This document shows, one piece after another, positions 27,821 through 53,307 of a stretch of DNA of 64,000 nucleotides (positions are counted from its first letter, which is position 1; every line of letters begins with the position of its first letter). A program made the position numbers and the translations under genes. Location: positions 1 to 64,000 of the forward strand of contig NZ_JADCJZ010000001.1 in NCBI RefSeq assembly GCF_014982725.1, written 5' to 3'. The DNA comes from Thermophilibacter gallinarum (GTDB lineage Bacteria > Actinomycetota > Coriobacteriia > Coriobacteriales > Atopobiaceae). The notes under the pieces are model-generated. The model saw only the letters and a list, made by a program, of their open reading frames with translations, ran no database searches and had not been told where the DNA came from.

Positions 27821-29203
27821 CTAATCGTGGAAGGCGTCGACCTCGACGAACTTGGTGGAGCCCGGCAGGAAGGTGAGCGGGATGTCCGCGAGCGCGCCGG
27901 AGCGGTTCTTGGCGATGATGAACGTGGTCTCGTTCATGGCCGGACGGTCGTCGCGGGCGGCCTCGTCCTCGCTCATCGAGCGGTCGAGCAGGGCGACGAT
28001 GTCGGCGTCCTGCTCGATGGAGCCGGACTCGCGCAGGTCGGACAGCTGCGGGCGCTTGCCGGTGCGGTTCTCGACGGTACGGTTGAGCTGAGAGAGCGCG
28101 ACGACCGGGACGCCCAGGTCCTTGGCCATGATCTTGATGCCGCGGCTCATCTCGGAGACCTCGGTGGCACGGCTGTCCGCGCGGCGCTGGCCGGCGGGCG
28201 GGGAGATGAGCTGCAGGTAGTCGATGATAACGAGGCCGAGCTTCTTGCCGTGCAGGATGCGGCGGGCCTTGGCGCGGATCTCCGTCACCGTGGTGCCGGG
28301 GGTGTCGTCGATCACGACGTCGAGCTGGGAGAGGTCGTTGGTTGCCTGGAGGATCTGCGGCCACTGCTCGTTGCGGATGCGCGCGGCGCGGATCTCCTGC
28401 AGGCCCACGCGGGCGTTGGCGGCGAGCAGGCGCTGCGCGATCTCCACCTTGGACATCTCGAGCGAGAACATGGCCACGCTCGCGCCGGCGAAGGCCGCGT
28501 TGGTCATGAGGTTGAGCGCGAACGACGTCTTGCCCACGCCCGGGCGCGCGCCGATGACCACCATCTGGCCGGGGCGCAGGCCGAGCAGGCACTCGTCGAT
28601 CTTGGGGAAGCCCGTCTTGACGCCGAGCATGTGGTCCTTGTCGGCGGCGTTGGTGCCGAGCTCCTCGTAGAGGTCGCCCATAATCTCCTCGAGGGACTGC
28701 TCGCTCGAGCGCACGTCGCGGTTGGTGACGTCCAGCAGCAGGCGCTCGGCGCGGTCCACGACCTCCTTGGTGTCCTCGGGCGCGTCGAAGGCGAGCGCGG
28801 TGATCTGGGCGGAGGCATTGATCATGCGGCGCAGCGTGGTGTCGCGGTGGAGCATCTCCACGTGGCGCCGCCAGCCCACGAGCGCGAGCGAGTTGTTGCC
28901 CAGGCCCAGAAGGAAGCTGCGGCCGCCCACGCGCTCCAGGTCGCCGGTGCTCTTGAGGTAGTCGGCGAGCGAGATGGTGTCCACGGGGAGGTTCTTGTCG
29001 AACATCTCCCGCATGGCCACGAAGACGGTGCGGTTGGAGGGGAGGTAGAAGTCGTCGGGCTCGAGGTCGATCAGGCACTCCTGGAGGGCGTCCGCCGAGA
29101 CCATCATCGCCGAGAGGACCGAGGCCTCCGCCTCGACGTCCTGCGGCATGGCCGCACCGGTGTCGACCGTCATCCTGGTGGGGTTCACGTCGTAGTCGCT
29201 CAT
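27821..29203 (-). CDS. dnaB: replicative DNA helicase DnaB
   Basis: 460 residues. The N-terminal domain (PQDVEAEASVLSAMMVSADAL) mediates hexamer and primase contacts; the RecA-like motor has Walker A VIGARPGVGKTSFALN, VAMFSLEMSK, Walker B LVIIDYLQLI, and the C-terminal VALSQLNRTVENR, SDLRESGSIEQDADIVALLDR and FIIAKNRSG motifs. It unwinds DNA at the replication fork. It lies in the conserved order rpsF-ssb-rpsR-rplI-dnaB-purA. No intein is visible. Confidence 0.96.
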   Translation of the reverse strand: MSDYDVNPTRMTVDTGAAMPQDVEAEASVLSAMMVSADALQECLIDLEPDDFYLPSNRTVFVAMREMFDKNLPVDTISLADYLKSTGDLERVGGRSFLLGLGNNSLALVGWRRHVEMLHRDTTLRRMINASAQITALAFDAPEDTKEVVDRAERLLLDVTNRDVRSSEQSLEEIMGDLYEELGTNAADKDHMLGVKTGFPKIDECLLGLRPGQMVVIGARPGVGKTSFALNLMTNAAFAGASVAMFSLEMSKVEIAQRLLAANARVGLQEIRAARIRNEQWPQILQATNDLSQLDVVIDDTPGTTVTEIRAKARRILHGKKLGLVIIDYLQLISPPAGQRRADSRATEVSEMSRGIKIMAKDLGVPVVALSQLNRTVENRTGKRPQLSDLRESGSIEQDADIVALLDRSMSEDEAARDDRPAMNETTFIIAKNRSGALADIPLTFLPGSTKFVEVDAFHD

Positions 29204-29521
29204 GCGCGGGCACTCCTCCTCTTTCTGCGTCCGACCATTCTAACGCGAGCGATGGGGTCCTCACGCCGCATGCGACGAACAACCGGCGGTTTCGGCCAAG
29301 GGGAACAGGCGCTCGGGCGCACGCGCGCGGGCGGCTGTCAAGGGGTGATTTTGGCCGCGGGCGCTCTTCTACAGCACAAGACGGAAACCCATGCGGCGCG
29401 AGCGGGCGATATGTACCGTTTCAACGTTTTCAACAATTTTTTTCTCGCCATTTTGGGCACGTTTCCGACGAGTTTTCGACATTTCGACACGTCGACGGAG
29501 CGCTTCCGGGTCACTGCCCAG

Positions 29522-40303: not shown

Positions 40304-40319
40304 GTGTGGCCTTTCTCTG

Positions 40320-40388
40320 GTGTGGAAAAGGGACAGTCACTTTTCCACATGCTCTCGGTGTGGAAAAGTGACTGTCCCTTTTCCACAC
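40320..40388. repeat. perfect 30-bp inverted repeat with four TTTTCCACA/TGTGGAAAA copies
   Basis: The arms 40320-40349 and 40359-40388 are perfect complements with a 9-bp spacer. Each arm starts with GTGTGGAAAA and ends with TTTTCCACA, so each is itself a partial palindrome around GGGACAGTCAC. It fills the gyrB-gyrA gap and can fold into a long RNA or DNA hairpin. TTTTCCACA equals a DnaA-box variant. Confidence 0.92.
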
Positions 40389-40401
40389 CCCGTCGGGGTG
40401 G

Positions 40402-42575: not shown

Positions 42576-43145
42576 TTAGCTATGTTCTTGCTTCTGTGCT
42601 TGGTAGGACACTCTCATCGCCCGAGAGACGCTGTCGCGCAGCTGCTCGGGAAGCCCCGCGCAGAGCTCGTCCACGCGGCGCTCCTCCTCCGCGGTGAGCT
42701 CCGGGAGGGGTCGCGCGGCCTTCGGGGCCGCCACCGGTCGGGAGGCGTCCGCGCGCCGGTCCAGGTAGCGCTGCCTGGAGAGCTTGAAGCGGACCTCGGA
42801 GAAGCGTAGGCCGCAGGTCGCGAGCCGCGCGGGGTAGATCTCCCGGCGGGCCATGAGGTCGACCTCGCTCGCCTTGCTGTCCACGTAGACCACGAGCACC
42901 GGGTCGACGCCCGCTCGGCGGTCGTCGACGTAGGTCCCCACGGTGTGGGCTCGCTCGTAGTCCCCGTTGACCGAGAACCACGCCCTGCCGACGTTCCACG
43001 TGGAGCGCAGGCCATCGCCCATGTCCTCGTTCGCGGCGACGTCCCCGAGCAGGTCGGCGAGGCTCTCCGCGGCGCGCTCGCGCCGGACGGTCTCCCGCTC
43101 TATCTCGCTTCTCGCCGCGCGGGCGTCTCGGTCTCTCTCACTCAC
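42576..43145 (-). CDS. DUF721 protein, DciA-like
   Basis: 189 residues, GTG start overlapping recF by 8 bp. The central part (ESLADLLGDVAANEDMGDGLRSTWNVGRAWFSVNGDYERAHTVGTYVDDR, then DPVLVVYVDSKASEVDLMARREIYPARLATCGLRFSEVRFKLSR) follows the DUF721 pattern. DUF721 proteins between recF and gyrB are the actinobacterial counterparts of DciA, which helps load the DnaB helicase when DnaC/DnaI is missing. No DnaC/DnaI gene is in the window. The Arg pair at the N-terminus is encoded with a rare AGA inside a CTTCTCGCC motif. Confidence 0.78.
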   Translation of the reverse strand: MSERDRDARAARSEIERETVRRERAAESLADLLGDVAANEDMGDGLRSTWNVGRAWFSVNGDYERAHTVGTYVDDRRAGVDPVLVVYVDSKASEVDLMARREIYPARLATCGLRFSEVRFKLSRQRYLDRRADASRPVAAPKAARPLPELTAEEERRVDELCAGLPEQLRDSVSRAMRVSYQAQKQEHS

Positions 43146-45576: not shown

Positions 45577-47136
45577 TCAGACGTTTCCGGTGATCGACTC
45601 GCGGATCTGCATGAGACGGTCGTAGAAGGTCTTGTCCTCCCGCTTGGCCTCGTCCACGACGCTGATGCTGTGCATGACGGTGGCGTGGCTGCGCCCGCCG
45701 AAGTGCTTGCCGATGTCCGCGAGCGTGCGGTCGCAGAGCTCGCGTGAGAGCCAGATGGCCACGTGGCGCGCCTCCATGAGCCCCTTGTGGCGCTTGTTGC
45801 CCACGAGGCTCGAGTGGTCGATGTCATAGAACTTCTCGACCGCGCGCTGCACGTCCTCGATAGAGACGGCTCGCCCGGAGCTGGGCCAGCACTCCTTGGC
45901 CACGGTCTCGATCTCCTCCTTCGTTATGGAGGAGCCCCTGCGCTCCGCGGTGGTGGCGGCGAAGAGGCAGCGCTGGCAGAAGCCCTCGATGACGCGGATG
46001 TTGTTGCCCGCGCGCTCGGCCATGTAGCTGCGGGCCTCGGGCGGGACGGTGCCCGTCAGGCCGGCCACGTTCTCGCGCACGGCGTCGTCGCGCATGCGCT
46101 CGCAGAAGGTCTCGATGAGGCGGAGCTTGAGCTCGTAGCTCGGGACCTGGATGGGCGTGGTGAAGCCGGCGGAGAGGCGGCTCGTGATGCGCTCGTCGAA
46201 CCCGTCCTTGCCCATGCCGAGCTGTGCCGGGGTCCGGTCGGCGGCGAGCACGATCTGCTTGCCGTTGGCGATGAGCTCGTTGAAGGTGTCGAAGAAGAAG
46301 CCGAGCGTGCCGGCCTTGCCGGACATCTTCTGGACGTCGTCGATGATGAGGACGTCGACGTCGGCATAGCTCTGCCTGAGTGCCGCGGCCGCCGAGCGCT
46401 CGGAGTGGCGCATGGCCTCGGTGTAGTCGGTTATGAAGGAGGACGCGTCGCGGTAGACGCACAGGCGCGACGGGTCGTTCTTTGCCACGTAGTTCTGGAT
46501 GGCGCGCAGCAGGTGGGTCTTGCCGAGGCCGCTCTTGCCGTAGATGAACAGCGGGTTGTAGGTGCTGTTCATGCCGTTGGCCACCTGGAGGGCGGCCTGG
46601 TAGGCGATGTCGTTCTCCTCGCCGCGGACGAAGCGGTCGAAGGTGAGCTTGGAGGTCGTCTGGGAGATGTCCTCGACGAGCGGGTTGTTCCTGCGGCGCA
46701 TCGCGGCGGCCGCGCGGGCCTCCTCGCCGCTGTTCTCCTCCCAGGTGTCCTCGGCGATGACGCGCGTGGTCGGGCCGCTCCAGGTGGCGACGTGTCCGTC
46801 GCCGGTGGCGGCCGCCCAGCTGTCCGCCTCCTCGCGGGACATGGAGGAGGTGGGGGCCGCGGCGGGCCGCGCCTGCGCGGGCGCGAACTCGAGGTCGAGG
46901 CGTATGGGCTCGAAGGCTGCCTGCGAGAGGCACTCCTCGATGATTGAGGCGTTCTTCGAGACGGTCTTGAGCACGAGCCTCATCGGGGTCTCGAGGCGCA
47001 GCGTGCCCCCCTCCATGCTCGTGGGTGTGCAGTTCCTGAGCATGGCGAGCGTCGACTCGGGGAGGTCCCGCGCGGCGAGCAGGTCAAGGGTGTCCTGCCA
47101 CAGAGCCTCGGCGTCTGATTCCAGAGAGAGTTCCAT
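45577..47136 (-). CDS. dnaA: chromosomal replication initiator DnaA
   Basis: 519 residues; the ATG at 47136 (MELSLESDAEALWQDTLDLL) begins domain I, whereas the longer frame upstream runs into the origin region. Domain II is a Ser/Ala/Pro-rich linker. Domain III (AAA+) has KLTFDRFVRGEENDIAYQAAL, Walker A FIYGKSGLGKTHLLRAIQNY, Walker B VLIIDDVQKM and VPSYELKLRLIETFCERM. Domain IV has KHKGLMEARHVAIWLSRELCDRTLADIGKHFGGRSHATVMHS, the DnaA-box-binding helix-turn-helix. It opens the origin and also regulates transcription. Confidence 0.96.
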   Translation of the reverse strand: MELSLESDAEALWQDTLDLLAARDLPESTLAMLRNCTPTSMEGGTLRLETPMRLVLKTVSKNASIIEECLSQAAFEPIRLDLEFAPAQARPAAAPTSSMSREEADSWAAATGDGHVATWSGPTTRVIAEDTWEENSGEEARAAAAMRRRNNPLVEDISQTTSKLTFDRFVRGEENDIAYQAALQVANGMNSTYNPLFIYGKSGLGKTHLLRAIQNYVAKNDPSRLCVYRDASSFITDYTEAMRHSERSAAAALRQSYADVDVLIIDDVQKMSGKAGTLGFFFDTFNELIANGKQIVLAADRTPAQLGMGKDGFDERITSRLSAGFTTPIQVPSYELKLRLIETFCERMRDDAVRENVAGLTGTVPPEARSYMAERAGNNIRVIEGFCQRCLFAATTAERRGSSITKEEIETVAKECWPSSGRAVSIEDVQRAVEKFYDIDHSSLVGNKRHKGLMEARHVAIWLSRELCDRTLADIGKHFGGRSHATVMHSISVVDEAKREDKTFYDRLMQIRESITGNV

Positions 47137-47154: not shown

Positions 47155-47194
47155 TGTTGAAAACAGCGACGCATAGTATAGCGATTGTAGATAA
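47155..47194 (-). promoter_or_regulatory. DnaA-box-like sites upstream of dnaA
   Basis: On the minus strand TTTTCAACA (47155-47163) and TTATCTACA (47186-47194), both of the form TT(A/T)TC(A/T)ACA, between dnaA and the ATPase gene. Two more pairs of the same form lie on the other side of the ATPase gene. Probably part of the origin and autoregulation of dnaA. Confidence 0.6.
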
Positions 47195-47209
47195 CTTGGC
47201 CCGGAGAAC

Positions 47210-48157
47210 CTAGACGAGCGTGCGTCCAATCCCGGTGAGCTGATACTTCTGCCCGACCTTGGTCACGATGCCCTGCGCGGCGAGGTTGGAGAGTACCCGC
47301 GACCACGTGGGACCTGACGAGCCGAAGGCTCGCGTGAGGTCGGACGGGCCGGCGCTGCCGCGCGCGGCGATGAGGGAGACGGCGTTGGACGAGCGCTCGT
47401 CGAGCTCGATCGCGGGCATCTGAGGCGCGGCGGGTGCGTGGGCGTACGCCGGCTGCTGTGGGGCCGTCGCGGGCCAGGGTTGCGGCGGGACTGCTGCGGG
47501 CCAGGTCTGCTGCTGCGAGTGCGTCCAGTAGGTCTGCGATGGCGCTCCCTGCCACGCGGGTGCGGCCACGGCCGCGGGTGCCTCCTGCGCGCCGAGGCGC
47601 TCGGCGCCGGATATGCCGCGGGCCTCGTCCGCGGGCCTCGTCGAGAGCGTGACGACGGTGCCGCCGGCTATGTTGTCCTCGACCTCGAGGCTCCCGCCCT
47701 TGTCCTCCATGTACTGCTGGACGTAGGGAAGGCCGCTCCCCACCCCGCGGATGTAGCGCTTCATCTCCTCGGTCGCCGAGGAGGTGCCGAACTCGAGGGC
47801 CAGGCCCTTCTCGCGTATCCCCGGGCCCTGGTCGGAGAAGCGGATGGTGTTGCCGTTGTCGAGGATCGAGATCGTGGGGGCCTGGAAGTAGGCGTGGATG
47901 AAGTTCTCCACGATCTCGCGTATGACCATGAAGGGTATGGCGCCGCCCTGCTCGCGGGCGAGCCTGGTCACGGTCGCCGTTATCTCCTCGAGGTAGGAGC
48001 GCACGTCCTGGGGCTCTATGACGACCACGCGCGGAGCCGCCGAGGCGTCGTCGTAGACGGCCACGCGCGCGGGATGCTCGACCTGGATGGAGCCCGTGCG
48101 CCCGTCCGTGACGTCCGTCTCGCCGTTCTCGACGAATGGATAGAAGTCCTGCGGCAC
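47210..48157 (-). CDS. GHKL-family ATPase with C-terminal winged-helix-like domain, located in the origin
   Basis: 315 residues; GTG start with GAAAGG upstream. The ATPase part has the N box IREIVENFIHAYFQAP, G1 box ILDNGNTIRFSDQGPGIRE, and G2 box VGSGLPYVQQYMEDKGGSL, as in anti-sigma kinases and histidine-kinase ATPase domains, but there is no H box, sensor or membrane helix. The N-terminal 90 residues include EVEHPARVAVYDD-like and VVVIEPQDVRSYLEEI. After a Pro/Gln/Ala/Trp-rich linker (about residues 205-250) the C-terminus reads SSNAVSLIAARGSAGPSDLTRAFGSSGPTWSRVLSNLAAQGIV, a winged-helix-like DNA-binding pattern. Location between dnaA and rpmH, flanked by DnaA boxes, suggests a role in origin or dnaA control. 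Function not known to me. Confidence 0.7.
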   Translation of the reverse strand: MPQDFYPFVENGETDVTDGRTGSIQVEHPARVAVYDDASAAPRVVVIEPQDVRSYLEEITATVTRLAREQGGAIPFMVIREIVENFIHAYFQAPTISILDNGNTIRFSDQGPGIREKGLALEFGTSSATEEMKRYIRGVGSGLPYVQQYMEDKGGSLEVEDNIAGGTVVTLSTRPADEARGISGAERLGAQEAPAAVAAPAWQGAPSQTYWTHSQQQTWPAAVPPQPWPATAPQQPAYAHAPAAPQMPAIELDERSSNAVSLIAARGSAGPSDLTRAFGSSGPTWSRVLSNLAAQGIVTKVGQKYQLTGIGRTLV

Positions 48158-48528
48158 TGCTTACCTTTCGACAACCGTTCGTCACCTGTAGAAAACTTTT
48201 CGCTGAGAATTCTATTCGAATGAAACTTTTCAACAGGCGATAAAAACTTGTTGATAACTCGTCTGACACGGGAGGAAATTCTGAAAAATCATAGCATTGA
48301 AACGACGTGGTTTCTCGATTTGGAAGAATGAATCCATTCTTCGGTTTCGTGAAATCGGGATTTCACGAGCGGCCGAGAAGCGCCGCATGGGCCTTCCTGT
48401 GCTCTCTACCTGCGGAGCAATCGTGAAGATATTCTGTCGTGAAAATTGACAGCGCCCGCGCGAGACCTTTACAATCTCTGAGCTTATTGCTCTATCTGGA
48501 CGTTCATACCCAATCGGGAGGAATAGAA
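48158..48528. other. origin-side intergenic region with DnaA-box-like sites and hairpins (oriC candidate)
   Basis: The 371-bp gap between the divergent ATPase gene and rpmH is AT-richer than the surroundings. It contains DnaA-box-like 9-mers TTTTCTACA (minus, 48187-48195), TTTTCAACA (plus, 48227-48235) and TTATCAACA (minus, 48249-48257), two tandem hairpins (48323-48342, GAAGAATG/CATTCTTC; 48347-48368, TCGTGAAAT/ATTTCACGA), a CTACCTGCGGAG half repeat (48416) and the rpmH promoter. Together with sites 47155-47194 and the dnaA-rpmH context this is very probably the replication origin. Confidence 0.75.
48446..48475 (+). promoter_or_regulatory. sigma70-type promoter of rpmH
   Basis: -35 TTGACA (48446-48451), 18-bp spacer, -10 TACAAT (48470-48475), giving a leader of about 47 nt to the rpmH start. 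Confidence 0.8.
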
Positions 48529-48663
48529 ATGAAGCGTACGTACCAGCCCAACAAGCGCAAGCGCGCCACCACCCACGGCTTCCGTGCCCGCATGGCCACC
48601 AAGGGCGGCCGCGCGGTTCTCGCCCGCCGTCGTGCGAAGGGTCGCAAGCGCCTCACCGTCTAG
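48529..48663 (+). CDS. rpmH: 50S ribosomal protein bL34
   Basis: 44 residues; GGGAGG ribosome binding site 8 bp before the ATG. The sequence [18 protein letters not shown] and [22 protein letters not shown] is the invariant bL34 pattern. First gene of the rpmH-rnpA-yidD-yidC run leading away from the origin. Confidence 0.97.
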
Positions 48664-51644: not shown

Positions 51645-52445
51645 ATGAGCTACAAAGATACCAAGCGAGGACTTCCCCAGCGCGACAGCAAGGTGATAGC
51701 TGTCATCAACCAGAAGGGTGGCGTTGGAAAGTCGACGACGGTCATCAATCTCTCTGCGACGTTGGGAGAGAACAAGAAGAAGGTACTTGTTGTCGACTTT
51801 GACCCTCAGGGGAACTCGACGAGTGGCTACGGCATCGAGAAGGAAGAGCTCGAACACGACGTCTATGACGTGATTCTGCACGATTATCCCATCGAGGACG
51901 TGATCTTGGAGACCTGCGAGCCCAATGTCTTCATCGTCCCGGCAACCATCCAGCTGGCGACTGCAGAAATCGAGCTTGTGACTGCGATGGCTCGCGAGTC
52001 TGTCCTCAAGGATGCCCTCGCAAAGGTGAAGGACGAGTTCGACTACGTGTTCATCGACTGTCCCCCCTCACTTGGCCTTCTGACCATCAACGCACTTATC
52101 GCGGCAAACTCGCTGCTCATTCCCATCCAATGCGAGTACTACGCACTTGAGGGAGTTGCAAAGCTCCTCGAGTCGATGGAGATGGTGAAGCGCCGCATGA
52201 ACCCTGACCTCGACATCTTTGGTGTGCTCATGACGATGTACGACAGCAGAACGACGCTCTCAAACCAGGTGGTCGAGGAGGTCAAGGGTTACTTCGGAAA
52301 GAAGATGTTCAACACGATCATCCCGAGGAACGTGAAGCTGTCCGAGGCGCCGAGCCACGGTCTTCCCGTCGTGAAGTACGCACGTGTGAGCAAGGGATCT
52401 CTGGCATACATGAAGCTGGCGAAAGAGGTGGTTGCTCGTGGCTAA
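51645..52445 (+). CDS. parA: chromosome partitioning ATPase ParA/Soj
   Basis: 266 residues. Deviant Walker A KVIAVINQKGGVGKSTTVINLS, VLVVDFDPQGNSTSGYG, YVFIDCPPSLGLLTINAL and IPRNVKLSEAPSHGLPVVKYA are the Soj/ParA hallmarks. It forms ATP-dependent dimers on the nucleoid that ParB-parS complexes follow, and Soj-type proteins also act on DnaA. AACGGAGGT ribosome binding site; its end overlaps parB. Confidence 0.96.
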   Translation: MSYKDTKRGLPQRDSKVIAVINQKGGVGKSTTVINLSATLGENKKKVLVVDFDPQGNSTSGYGIEKEELEHDVYDVILHDYPIEDVILETCEPNVFIVPATIQLATAEIELVTAMARESVLKDALAKVKDEFDYVFIDCPPSLGLLTINALIAANSLLIPIQCEYYALEGVAKLLESMEMVKRRMNPDLDIFGVLMTMYDSRTTLSNQVVEEVKGYFGKKMFNTIIPRNVKLSEAPSHGLPVVKYARVSKGSLAYMKLAKEVVARG

Positions 52446-53307
52446 GAAAACAGGGCTTGGTAAGGGTCTCGGGCTTCTCGTCGGCGAGGCCGACGCCGAG
52501 ACTGCTGGGATGCGCCCGGATTCGACCCTTCCCATCGACCGTGTAAAGCCGAACAAGGGACAGCCGAGAAAGCGCTTCAAGCCGGAGGACCTCGCAGAGC
52601 TGACCGACTCCATCAAGCAGAACGGCATCCTGCAGCCCATCCTCGTTCGCAAGAAGGGCACTGGATACGAGATCGTCGCAGGCGAGCGCAGGTACCAGGC
52701 GGCTCGAGCCGCCGGTCTGACGGAGGTCCCGGTCGTCATTCGCGACATCTCCGACGAGGATGTCTTCAAGCTCGCCCTCATTGAGAACCTCCAGCGCTCC
52801 GACCTCACGCCGCTCGAGGAGGCGAGGGGCTATCGACAGCTGATCAAGGAGAAGGGTCTGACGCAGGAGGAGCTCGCGAAGGCGTTGTCCAAGTCCCGCT
52901 CGGCGATCACCAACACCATTCGCCTGCTCGACCTCCCCAAGGAGGTGCAGGAGCTCGTCGACGACGGGAGTCTGTCAGCAGGGCATGCCCGGGCGATCCT
53001 TGCCGTGCCGAGCGAGGACGGGCGCATCAGGCTTGCCAAGAAGGTCGTCGAGGAGCGTCTGTCGGTCCGTCAGACAGAAAGTCTCGCACCGCTGTTTTCT
53101 GTCAGTGAGCACACGGAGCGGGCAGTGCGTACGCCGATGCCCCAGTCGTTCAAGCGAGCCGCCCGTCAGATGCGCCTTGCCCTGGACACCAACGTTAAGG
53201 TCAGGAGTGTGCGCGGCAAGAACAAGGTCGAGATCGAGTTCAGCGACGAGGAGGAGCTGGCCCACATCGTGGAGCTTCTCGCCGGCCCGAGGTCGTGGTC
53301 CGACTGA
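52438..53307 (+). CDS. parB: chromosome partitioning protein ParB/Spo0J
   Basis: 289 residues; the GTG at 52438 overlaps the parA stop and has GAGGTGG upstream. TGLGKGLGLLVGEADAE is the ParA-contacting N-terminus; the CTPase fold has LPIDRVKPNKGQPRKRFKPEDLAELTDSIKQNGILQPILV, GERRYQAARAAGL and ALIENLQRSDLTPLEEARGY; the parS-binding helix-turn-helix has KGLTQEELAKALSKSRSAITNTIRLLDLP. A C-terminal dimerisation domain follows. It binds the three parS sites upstream. Confidence 0.96.
   Translation: MAKKTGLGKGLGLLVGEADAETAGMRPDSTLPIDRVKPNKGQPRKRFKPEDLAELTDSIKQNGILQPILVRKKGTGYEIVAGERRYQAARAAGLTEVPVVIRDISDEDVFKLALIENLQRSDLTPLEEARGYRQLIKEKGLTQEELAKALSKSRSAITNTIRLLDLPKEVQELVDDGSLSAGHARAILAVPSEDGRIRLAKKVVEERLSVRQTESLAPLFSVSEHTERAVRTPMPQSFKRAARQMRLALDTNVKVRSVRGKNKVEIEFSDEEELAHIVELLAGPRSWSD

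Follow-up and report, generated by a model that had tools for sequence, protein, structure and literature searches.

A conserved GHKL ATPase–winged-helix gene beside dnaA in the predicted replication origin of Thermophilibacter gallinarum and related Actinomycetota

Among the fold matches listed, the protein reported here comes closest to DIP2311 of Corynebacterium diphtheriae (PDB 3LMM), a GHKL ATPase–winged helix-turn-helix (wHTH) protein of the COG2865 type. DIP2311 also bears a C-terminal wHTH, and proteins of its type typically have an AlbA_2 N-terminal domain and a match to HATPase_c_4; to our knowledge it has no linkage to dnaA. The SpoIIAB/RsbW switches are single-domain proteins that work with a STAS partner. 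YabA, SirA, Hda and DiaA act directly on DnaA or the origin complex in other systems, and the control of initiation beyond E. coli and B. subtilis has yet to be understood. According to one study, no homologs of DnaA regulators have been identified in many bacteria, among them mycobacteria, and DciA, specified by an origin-adjacent actinobacterial gene of unknown function, turned out to act in replication (PMC5720831).

The window analysed in this study, 64,000 nucleotides of Thermophilibacter gallinarum DNA, carries between dnaA and rpmH a gene for a 315-residue protein, as a first-pass annotation of the same DNA had described. The features of the gene and its product are as follows.

47213..48157 (−): GHKL ATPase–wHTH protein gene, 315 aa, GTG start, stop codon 47210–47212 (open reading frame and homologs)
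47624..48088 (−): GHKL ATP-binding domain including the conserved N-terminal strand pair, residues 24–178 (AlphaFold2, fold search)
47903..47917 (−): N box E81-x-x-x-N85; E81 and N85 invariant in 32/32 homologs
47816..47833 (−): G1 box DQGPGI, residues 109–114; D109, G111, P112 and G113 invariant in 32/32
47732..47746 (−): G2 box GVGSG, residues 138–142; G138, G140 and G142 invariant in 32/32
47213..47410 (−): C-terminal wHTH, residues 250–315; pI 10.3, pLDDT about 97, MarR-type fold matches

The N, G1 and G2 boxes that the first-pass annotation had recognized are borne out by a Pfam match to HATPase_c at residues 77–172 (E 3.6e-10), and the same family (PF02518) is matched by 32/32 members of alignment A1, the set of diverse homologs on which residue invariance and the family profile are based. 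The fold prediction that had been called for gave two confident domains, the GHKL domain (residues 24–178; mean pLDDT 83.5, pTM 0.83) and a wHTH (residues 251–310; pLDDT about 97), both from AlphaFold2. The latter corresponds to the winged-helix-like C-terminus suspected at first; it is also matched at residues 264–313 by HVO_A0261_N, a Pfam wHTH family (E 5.1e-8, slightly below its cut-off), and resembles the MarR class in the fold search (e.g., 2fxa_D: Z 12.1, rmsd 1.9, 68 aligned). Its columns are filled to at least 0.96 in an alignment of 85 homologs, and it is basic (pI 10.3) in an otherwise acidic protein. The linker joining the domains is Pro/Ala/Gln-rich and predicted to be disordered, and it varies in length and sequence among members; the two domains do not. 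In the nearest relative (locus L160, genome G004), which is 95% identical, the frame is broken within the linker, either by a sequencing error or by a real change. Neither NCBIfam nor Pfam holds a model of the whole protein, and the 32 diverse members match generic domains only.

Since HATPase_c is common to histidine kinases, and the near relative L160 has a broken frame, the gene could be read as a histidine kinase fragment or as one in decay. However, the 20 Pfam families that the 32 members of A1 match include no phosphoacceptor (HisKA-type) family, none of the 32 has a membrane-like stretch (19 residues with hydropathy of at least 1.6), in agreement with the first reading that this is no histidine kinase, and both domains and the ATP site are conserved over several classes. 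Fragmentation or decay is thereby refuted as a general explanation, and we give it almost no credence.

The suggestion that the protein is an anti-sigma-like factor fared less well than the domain assignments. A switch of the SpoIIAB/RsbW type, whether anti-sigma factor or serine kinase, would agree with the Glu-xxx-Asn N box, with the weak similarity to the SpoIIAB model seen in 14/32 members, and with the SpoIIAB chains that match the GHKL domain at Z 8.9–9.5 (histidine kinases and SpoIIAB together span Z 8.7–9.6). Against this, the GHKL domain lies well above SpoIIAB in its similarity to DIP2311 (3lmm_C: Z 14.1, rmsd 2.8, 148 aligned; the next is at 9.6 among the matches listed), and DIP2311 is also the best match of the full model among the fold matches listed (Z 13.6). 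The wHTH half is present throughout, and between rpmH and dnaA the block holds no gene other than this one. The suggestion thus finds little support and is improbable.

The surroundings of the gene have the character of a replication origin, with the following features.

45577..47136 (−): dnaA, the next gene on the same strand (TIGR00362, over its cut-off)
48529..48663 (+): rpmH, on the opposite flank in divergent orientation (from sequence)
47155..47163 (−): DnaA box TTTTCAACA in the GHKL–dnaA gap (conserved column block)
47186..47194 (−): DnaA box TTATCTACA in the GHKL–dnaA gap (conserved column block)
48187..48195 (−): DnaA box TTTTCTACA in the rpmH–GHKL gap (conserved column block)
48227..48257: convergent DnaA box pair TTATCAACA-N13-TGTTGAAAA, with boxes at 48249–48257 (−) and 48227–48235 (+)
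48288..48296 (−): putative extended −10 TGCTATGAT of the GHKL–dnaA transcript (conserved block in a 75-sequence alignment)
47175..47180 (−): putative −10 (TATACT) for a promoter close to dnaA, between two DnaA boxes (block in a 71-sequence alignment)

All five DnaA-box-like 9-mers listed by the first-pass annotation are present on the two sides of the gene, beginning at 47155, 47186, 48187 and 48249 on the minus strand and at 48227 on the plus strand. The rpmH–GHKL gap of the window (371 bp) has three boxes where 0.035 would be expected and the GHKL–dnaA gap (73 bp) has two against 0.006, counts that were reached in either gap by 0/20,000 shuffles, and the first 400 kb of the contig contain only ten occurrences of TTWTC[A/C/T]ACA, five of them at this locus. 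Across 203 loci, which overlap in genomes, the rpmH–GHKL gaps hold 362 copies of TTWTC[A/C]ACA where 4.9 would be expected, and 177 of the loci have one or more. Facing box pairs are also recurrent: in named Atopobiaceae-type loci their commonest spacer is 13 bp (28 pairs), in a diverse locus set spacers of 14–15 and 2–3 bp recur, and convergent pairs of fixed spacer (2–3 or 13–15 bp) stand upstream of dnaA or the GHKL gene across the phylum, with or without the GHKL gene. For the putative extended −10 of the GHKL–dnaA transcript, the pattern TGNTANNNT was matched in 75/79 named gaps, a count made with a loose pattern and without a control. An origin is usually marked by a minimum of cumulative GC skew; over the 400 kb examined here the extremum, at about 55 kb, is a maximum and so opposite in sign, and this turn agrees only roughly, but is broadly consistent, with an origin at the locus. 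With boxes and skew turn both here, the objection that the origin might map elsewhere does not hold, and the position of the GHKL gene inside oriC is supported.

The linkage to dnaA is constant wherever the flank is long enough. With homologs found by sequence alone and in locus sets that overlap in genomes, dnaA lies downstream on the same strand in 67/67 fetched regions (L057–L136; 13 with too little flank unscored), in 78/78 named loci (two unscored for the same reason) and in 26/30 short-flank loci (L001–L056; 26 unscored). The four misses (L037, L043, L045 and L048) have flanks of only about 1.5 kb, and for one of them, genome G301, a longer region (L065) does show dnaA. The homologs thus adjoin dnaA and do not lie at unrelated loci, which would have spoken against a role at the origin. 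A divergent rpmH is found upstream in 54/54, 67/70 and 77/77 cases (L001–L056, L057–L136 and named loci, respectively). L063 carries an inversion in which DnaA boxes, GHKL gene and dnaA have turned together, as one block, relative to dnaN–recF and rpmH, while in L118 and L124 rpmH is gone and boxes still precede the GHKL gene (the L118 contig ends before dnaA); the gene is therefore linked to the boxes and dnaA rather than to rpmH. In 119/150 loci the dnaA frame begins no more than 100 bp from the GHKL stop codon, in 31 of these at or before it, this opening being the earliest possible start, such that true gaps may be longer. So short a distance suits one transcriptional unit.

The gene is widespread among the relatives of T. 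gallinarum. Sequence searches alone found a homolog in 50/60 relatives and, at E ≤ 1e-6, in 161/396 genomes of the phylum, a few of the weakest of which may be kinases. Using profile A1 at E ≤ 1e-15, the gene is present in 142/149 genomes and 72/75 genera of the window's own class, counts that are by themselves no test of position; taken with the placement of dnaA in 67/67 and 78/78 loci, conservation at the same position holds within the class, as the first-pass annotation had asked, and extends beyond it. The same profile finds the gene in 16/18 genomes of the class of G063, 21/23 of the class of G070 (probably Rubrobacteria), 38/80 of the class of G073, 11/20 of the class of G250 and 0/59 of the class of G082 (presumably Actinomycetes). 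Presence follows families in the split classes: in that of G073 families f24, f36 and f106 are nearly all positive and f30, f38, f47, f51 and f64 all negative, and whole families of the classes of both G073 and G250 are without the gene. In 30 phylum genomes scored as negative no open reading frame near dnaA matches the profile, so the gene is truly absent there and was not overlooked. It is usually present in one copy per genome. Median pairwise identity of the matched segment over 49 genomes is 42%, compared with 35% for DnaN, 37% for YidC and 53% for DnaA, which puts its conservation on a par with that of core genes. Its absence from the class of G082 and from whole families of two other classes shows that lineages can dispense with the gene over evolution. 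In a search of contigs, the best 80 of 319 relatives were from the window's own class or labelled just as actinobacterium or bacterium. A mobile origin was considered and rejected, as no relative was found in the plasmids, phages or viral contigs searched.

Searches for enriched k-mers and dyads in both gaps found no conserved operator. Besides promoter elements and DnaA boxes they yielded a single palindrome, CCACA-N2-TGTGG, which occurs in 30/77 diverse loci against 0.02 expected; a longer form has one site per genome in 3/8 genomes searched. The palindrome was tried as the operator of a dimeric wHTH and ruled out, because it is also found upstream of dnaA in 13/30 genomes without the GHKL–wHTH gene; it is therefore a DnaA-box pair independent of that gene.

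The lack of an operator in the two gaps bears on two other explanations. In the main rival explanation, the protein would act directly on DnaA or the origin complex, the wHTH holding it at the origin and ATP binding by the GHKL domain serving as a clamp or switch. This would suit a gene that moves as a block with boxes and dnaA and has no operator of its own in either gap, and has a precedent in DciA (PMC5720831). On the other hand, a wHTH would be more usual in a transcription factor and none of the co-variation tested points to a surface of DnaA, and direct action appears rather unlikely. Second among the rivals, the protein may be an ordinary transcription factor that serves other genes, its adjacency to dnaA reflecting shared transcription or selection for dosage near the origin and no control of initiation. 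Such a factor need have no operator at the locus and could be missing from whole families, both of which are seen, but the gene stays next to dnaA despite inversion or the loss of rpmH and does so in several classes, which exceeds what dosage would call for; we regard this reading too as unlikely, and somewhat more so.

Our preferred reading, held at a little short of even confidence, is that the protein is dedicated to the dnaA locus, a single-copy regulator that responds to ATP, binds DNA and controls the operon it forms with dnaA, and hence initiation. It builds on the position, orientation and conservation of the gene, the intact ATP-site residues, the predicted wHTH fold and the boxes on both sides. 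The protein would be made from a promoter inside oriC upstream of dnaA, usually as one transcriptional unit with it. Its GHKL half would bind ATP, dimerise and change shape with the nucleotide, and its basic wHTH half would bind DNA, presumably origin-proximal DNA or the dnaA promoter. The putative −10 elements at 48288–48296 and 47175–47180 would place the operon promoter and a dnaA promoter beside DnaA boxes, and DnaA and the GHKL–wHTH protein could therefore act on the same short stretch. In this way nucleotide state or another signal might be coupled to dnaA expression and through it to initiation; the first-pass proposal, that ATP or a signal is coupled to dnaA expression or origin firing, likewise remains an inference. 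A bolder reading, held with somewhat less confidence, is that this is an ancient ATP-switched protein, built into the origin of deep-branching Actinomycetota and absent from the presumed Actinomycetes. It would then be an initiation regulator of a new kind, one that senses nucleotide state and works on dnaA or the origin complex. A single-copy gene that keeps its place before dnaA across several classes of the phylum, and that combines a complete ATP site with a DNA-binding domain, makes a strong candidate for a regulator so far missing.

The boxes themselves deserve comment. In E. coli DnaA, the residues that contact box bases include D433, H434 and T435 (PMC7561715). The window's DnaA has S-H-A at these positions and, in loci L057–L216, Atopobiaceae-type DnaA proteins have S or T for D433 and A for T435 (E. 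coli numbers), with boxes that lack C at position 6. Among these 160 loci, 47 were without the motif, seven without a scorable gap, and 106 were scored. Gaps of the 50 with [S/T]HAT hold 47 TTWTCAACA, 27 TTWTCTACA, 24 TTWTCGACA and no TTWTCCACA, compared with 76 TTWTCCACA, 35 TTWTCAACA and four of TTWTCTACA and TTWTCGACA together in the 49 with DHTT or DHST; the remaining seven have rarer motifs. Since box and reader changed together, the 9-mers fit real DnaA boxes, the two groups being also two lineages. DnaA of this bacterial family has altered base-contact residues, and the boxes of the family read TTWTC[A/T/G]ACA. With recognition residues and consensus altered, a search with TTWTNCACA misses the boxes of gut and oral Coriobacteriia, which matters for origin prediction. 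Boxes of the altered consensus (TTTTCAACA and TTTTCGACA) also occur at 29427–29481, between rplI and a gene that by its sequence is probably dnaB (27821–29203; putative replicative helicase), about 220–270 bp upstream of the latter.

A TW motif in the wHTH recognition helix was also compared with the DnaA change: 70 loci have both, one has the DnaA change only, 11 the helix only and 64 neither, with 40/186 unscored. This co-variation is strong but confounded by descent and was set aside as evidence. Eleven of the 81 TW helices stand beside an unchanged DnaA, and these exceptions show that the helix can change without the DnaA change.

Some other features of the window may be recorded. The gyrB–gyrA gap (40311–40390) forms a perfect hairpin with a stem of about 31 bp and a loop of 9, at −58.7 kcal/mol compared with −19.9 for shuffles, and contains four TTTTCCACA; no counterpart was seen in the other loci examined, few of which reach the gyr genes. 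For the ParB homolog at 52432–53307 (+) the top-scoring model is Noc (nucleoid occlusion), though below its cut-off. A 189-aa open reading frame (42576–43145, −) lies between recF and gyrB, where mycobacteria have dciA; it matches nothing in Pfam or NCBIfam and is possibly a divergent DciA.

Compared with known systems, the GHKL-then-wHTH architecture is not new as a kind of protein, because it exists in proteins of the DIP2311 type. No title or abstract in our literature search described a family of this sort fixed at dnaA, which is no proof of its being unpublished. The window protein has the same GHKL fold and C-terminal wHTH as DIP2311 at 15% identity, but AlbA_2 and HATPase_c_4, typical of the DIP2311/COG2865 type, are absent from the 20 Pfam families matched by the 32 members of its family. 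With SpoIIAB/RsbW it has the GHKL fold and the ExxxN N box in common; unlike them it has a fused wHTH and, as adjoining genes, rpmH and dnaA and no STAS partner. It shares HATPase_c with its N, G1 and G2 boxes with two-component histidine kinases, whereas its family is without their phosphoacceptor domain and without a membrane-like stretch. DciA (DUF721), an origin-linked helicase operator, is unrelated in its domains and sits between recF and gyrB in mycobacteria, where the window has the separate unnamed open reading frame at 42576–43145. The likeness to DciA is one of circumstance, for it too was a conserved gene of unknown function beside oriC, in mycobacteria, and was later recognized as a replication protein (PMC5720831).
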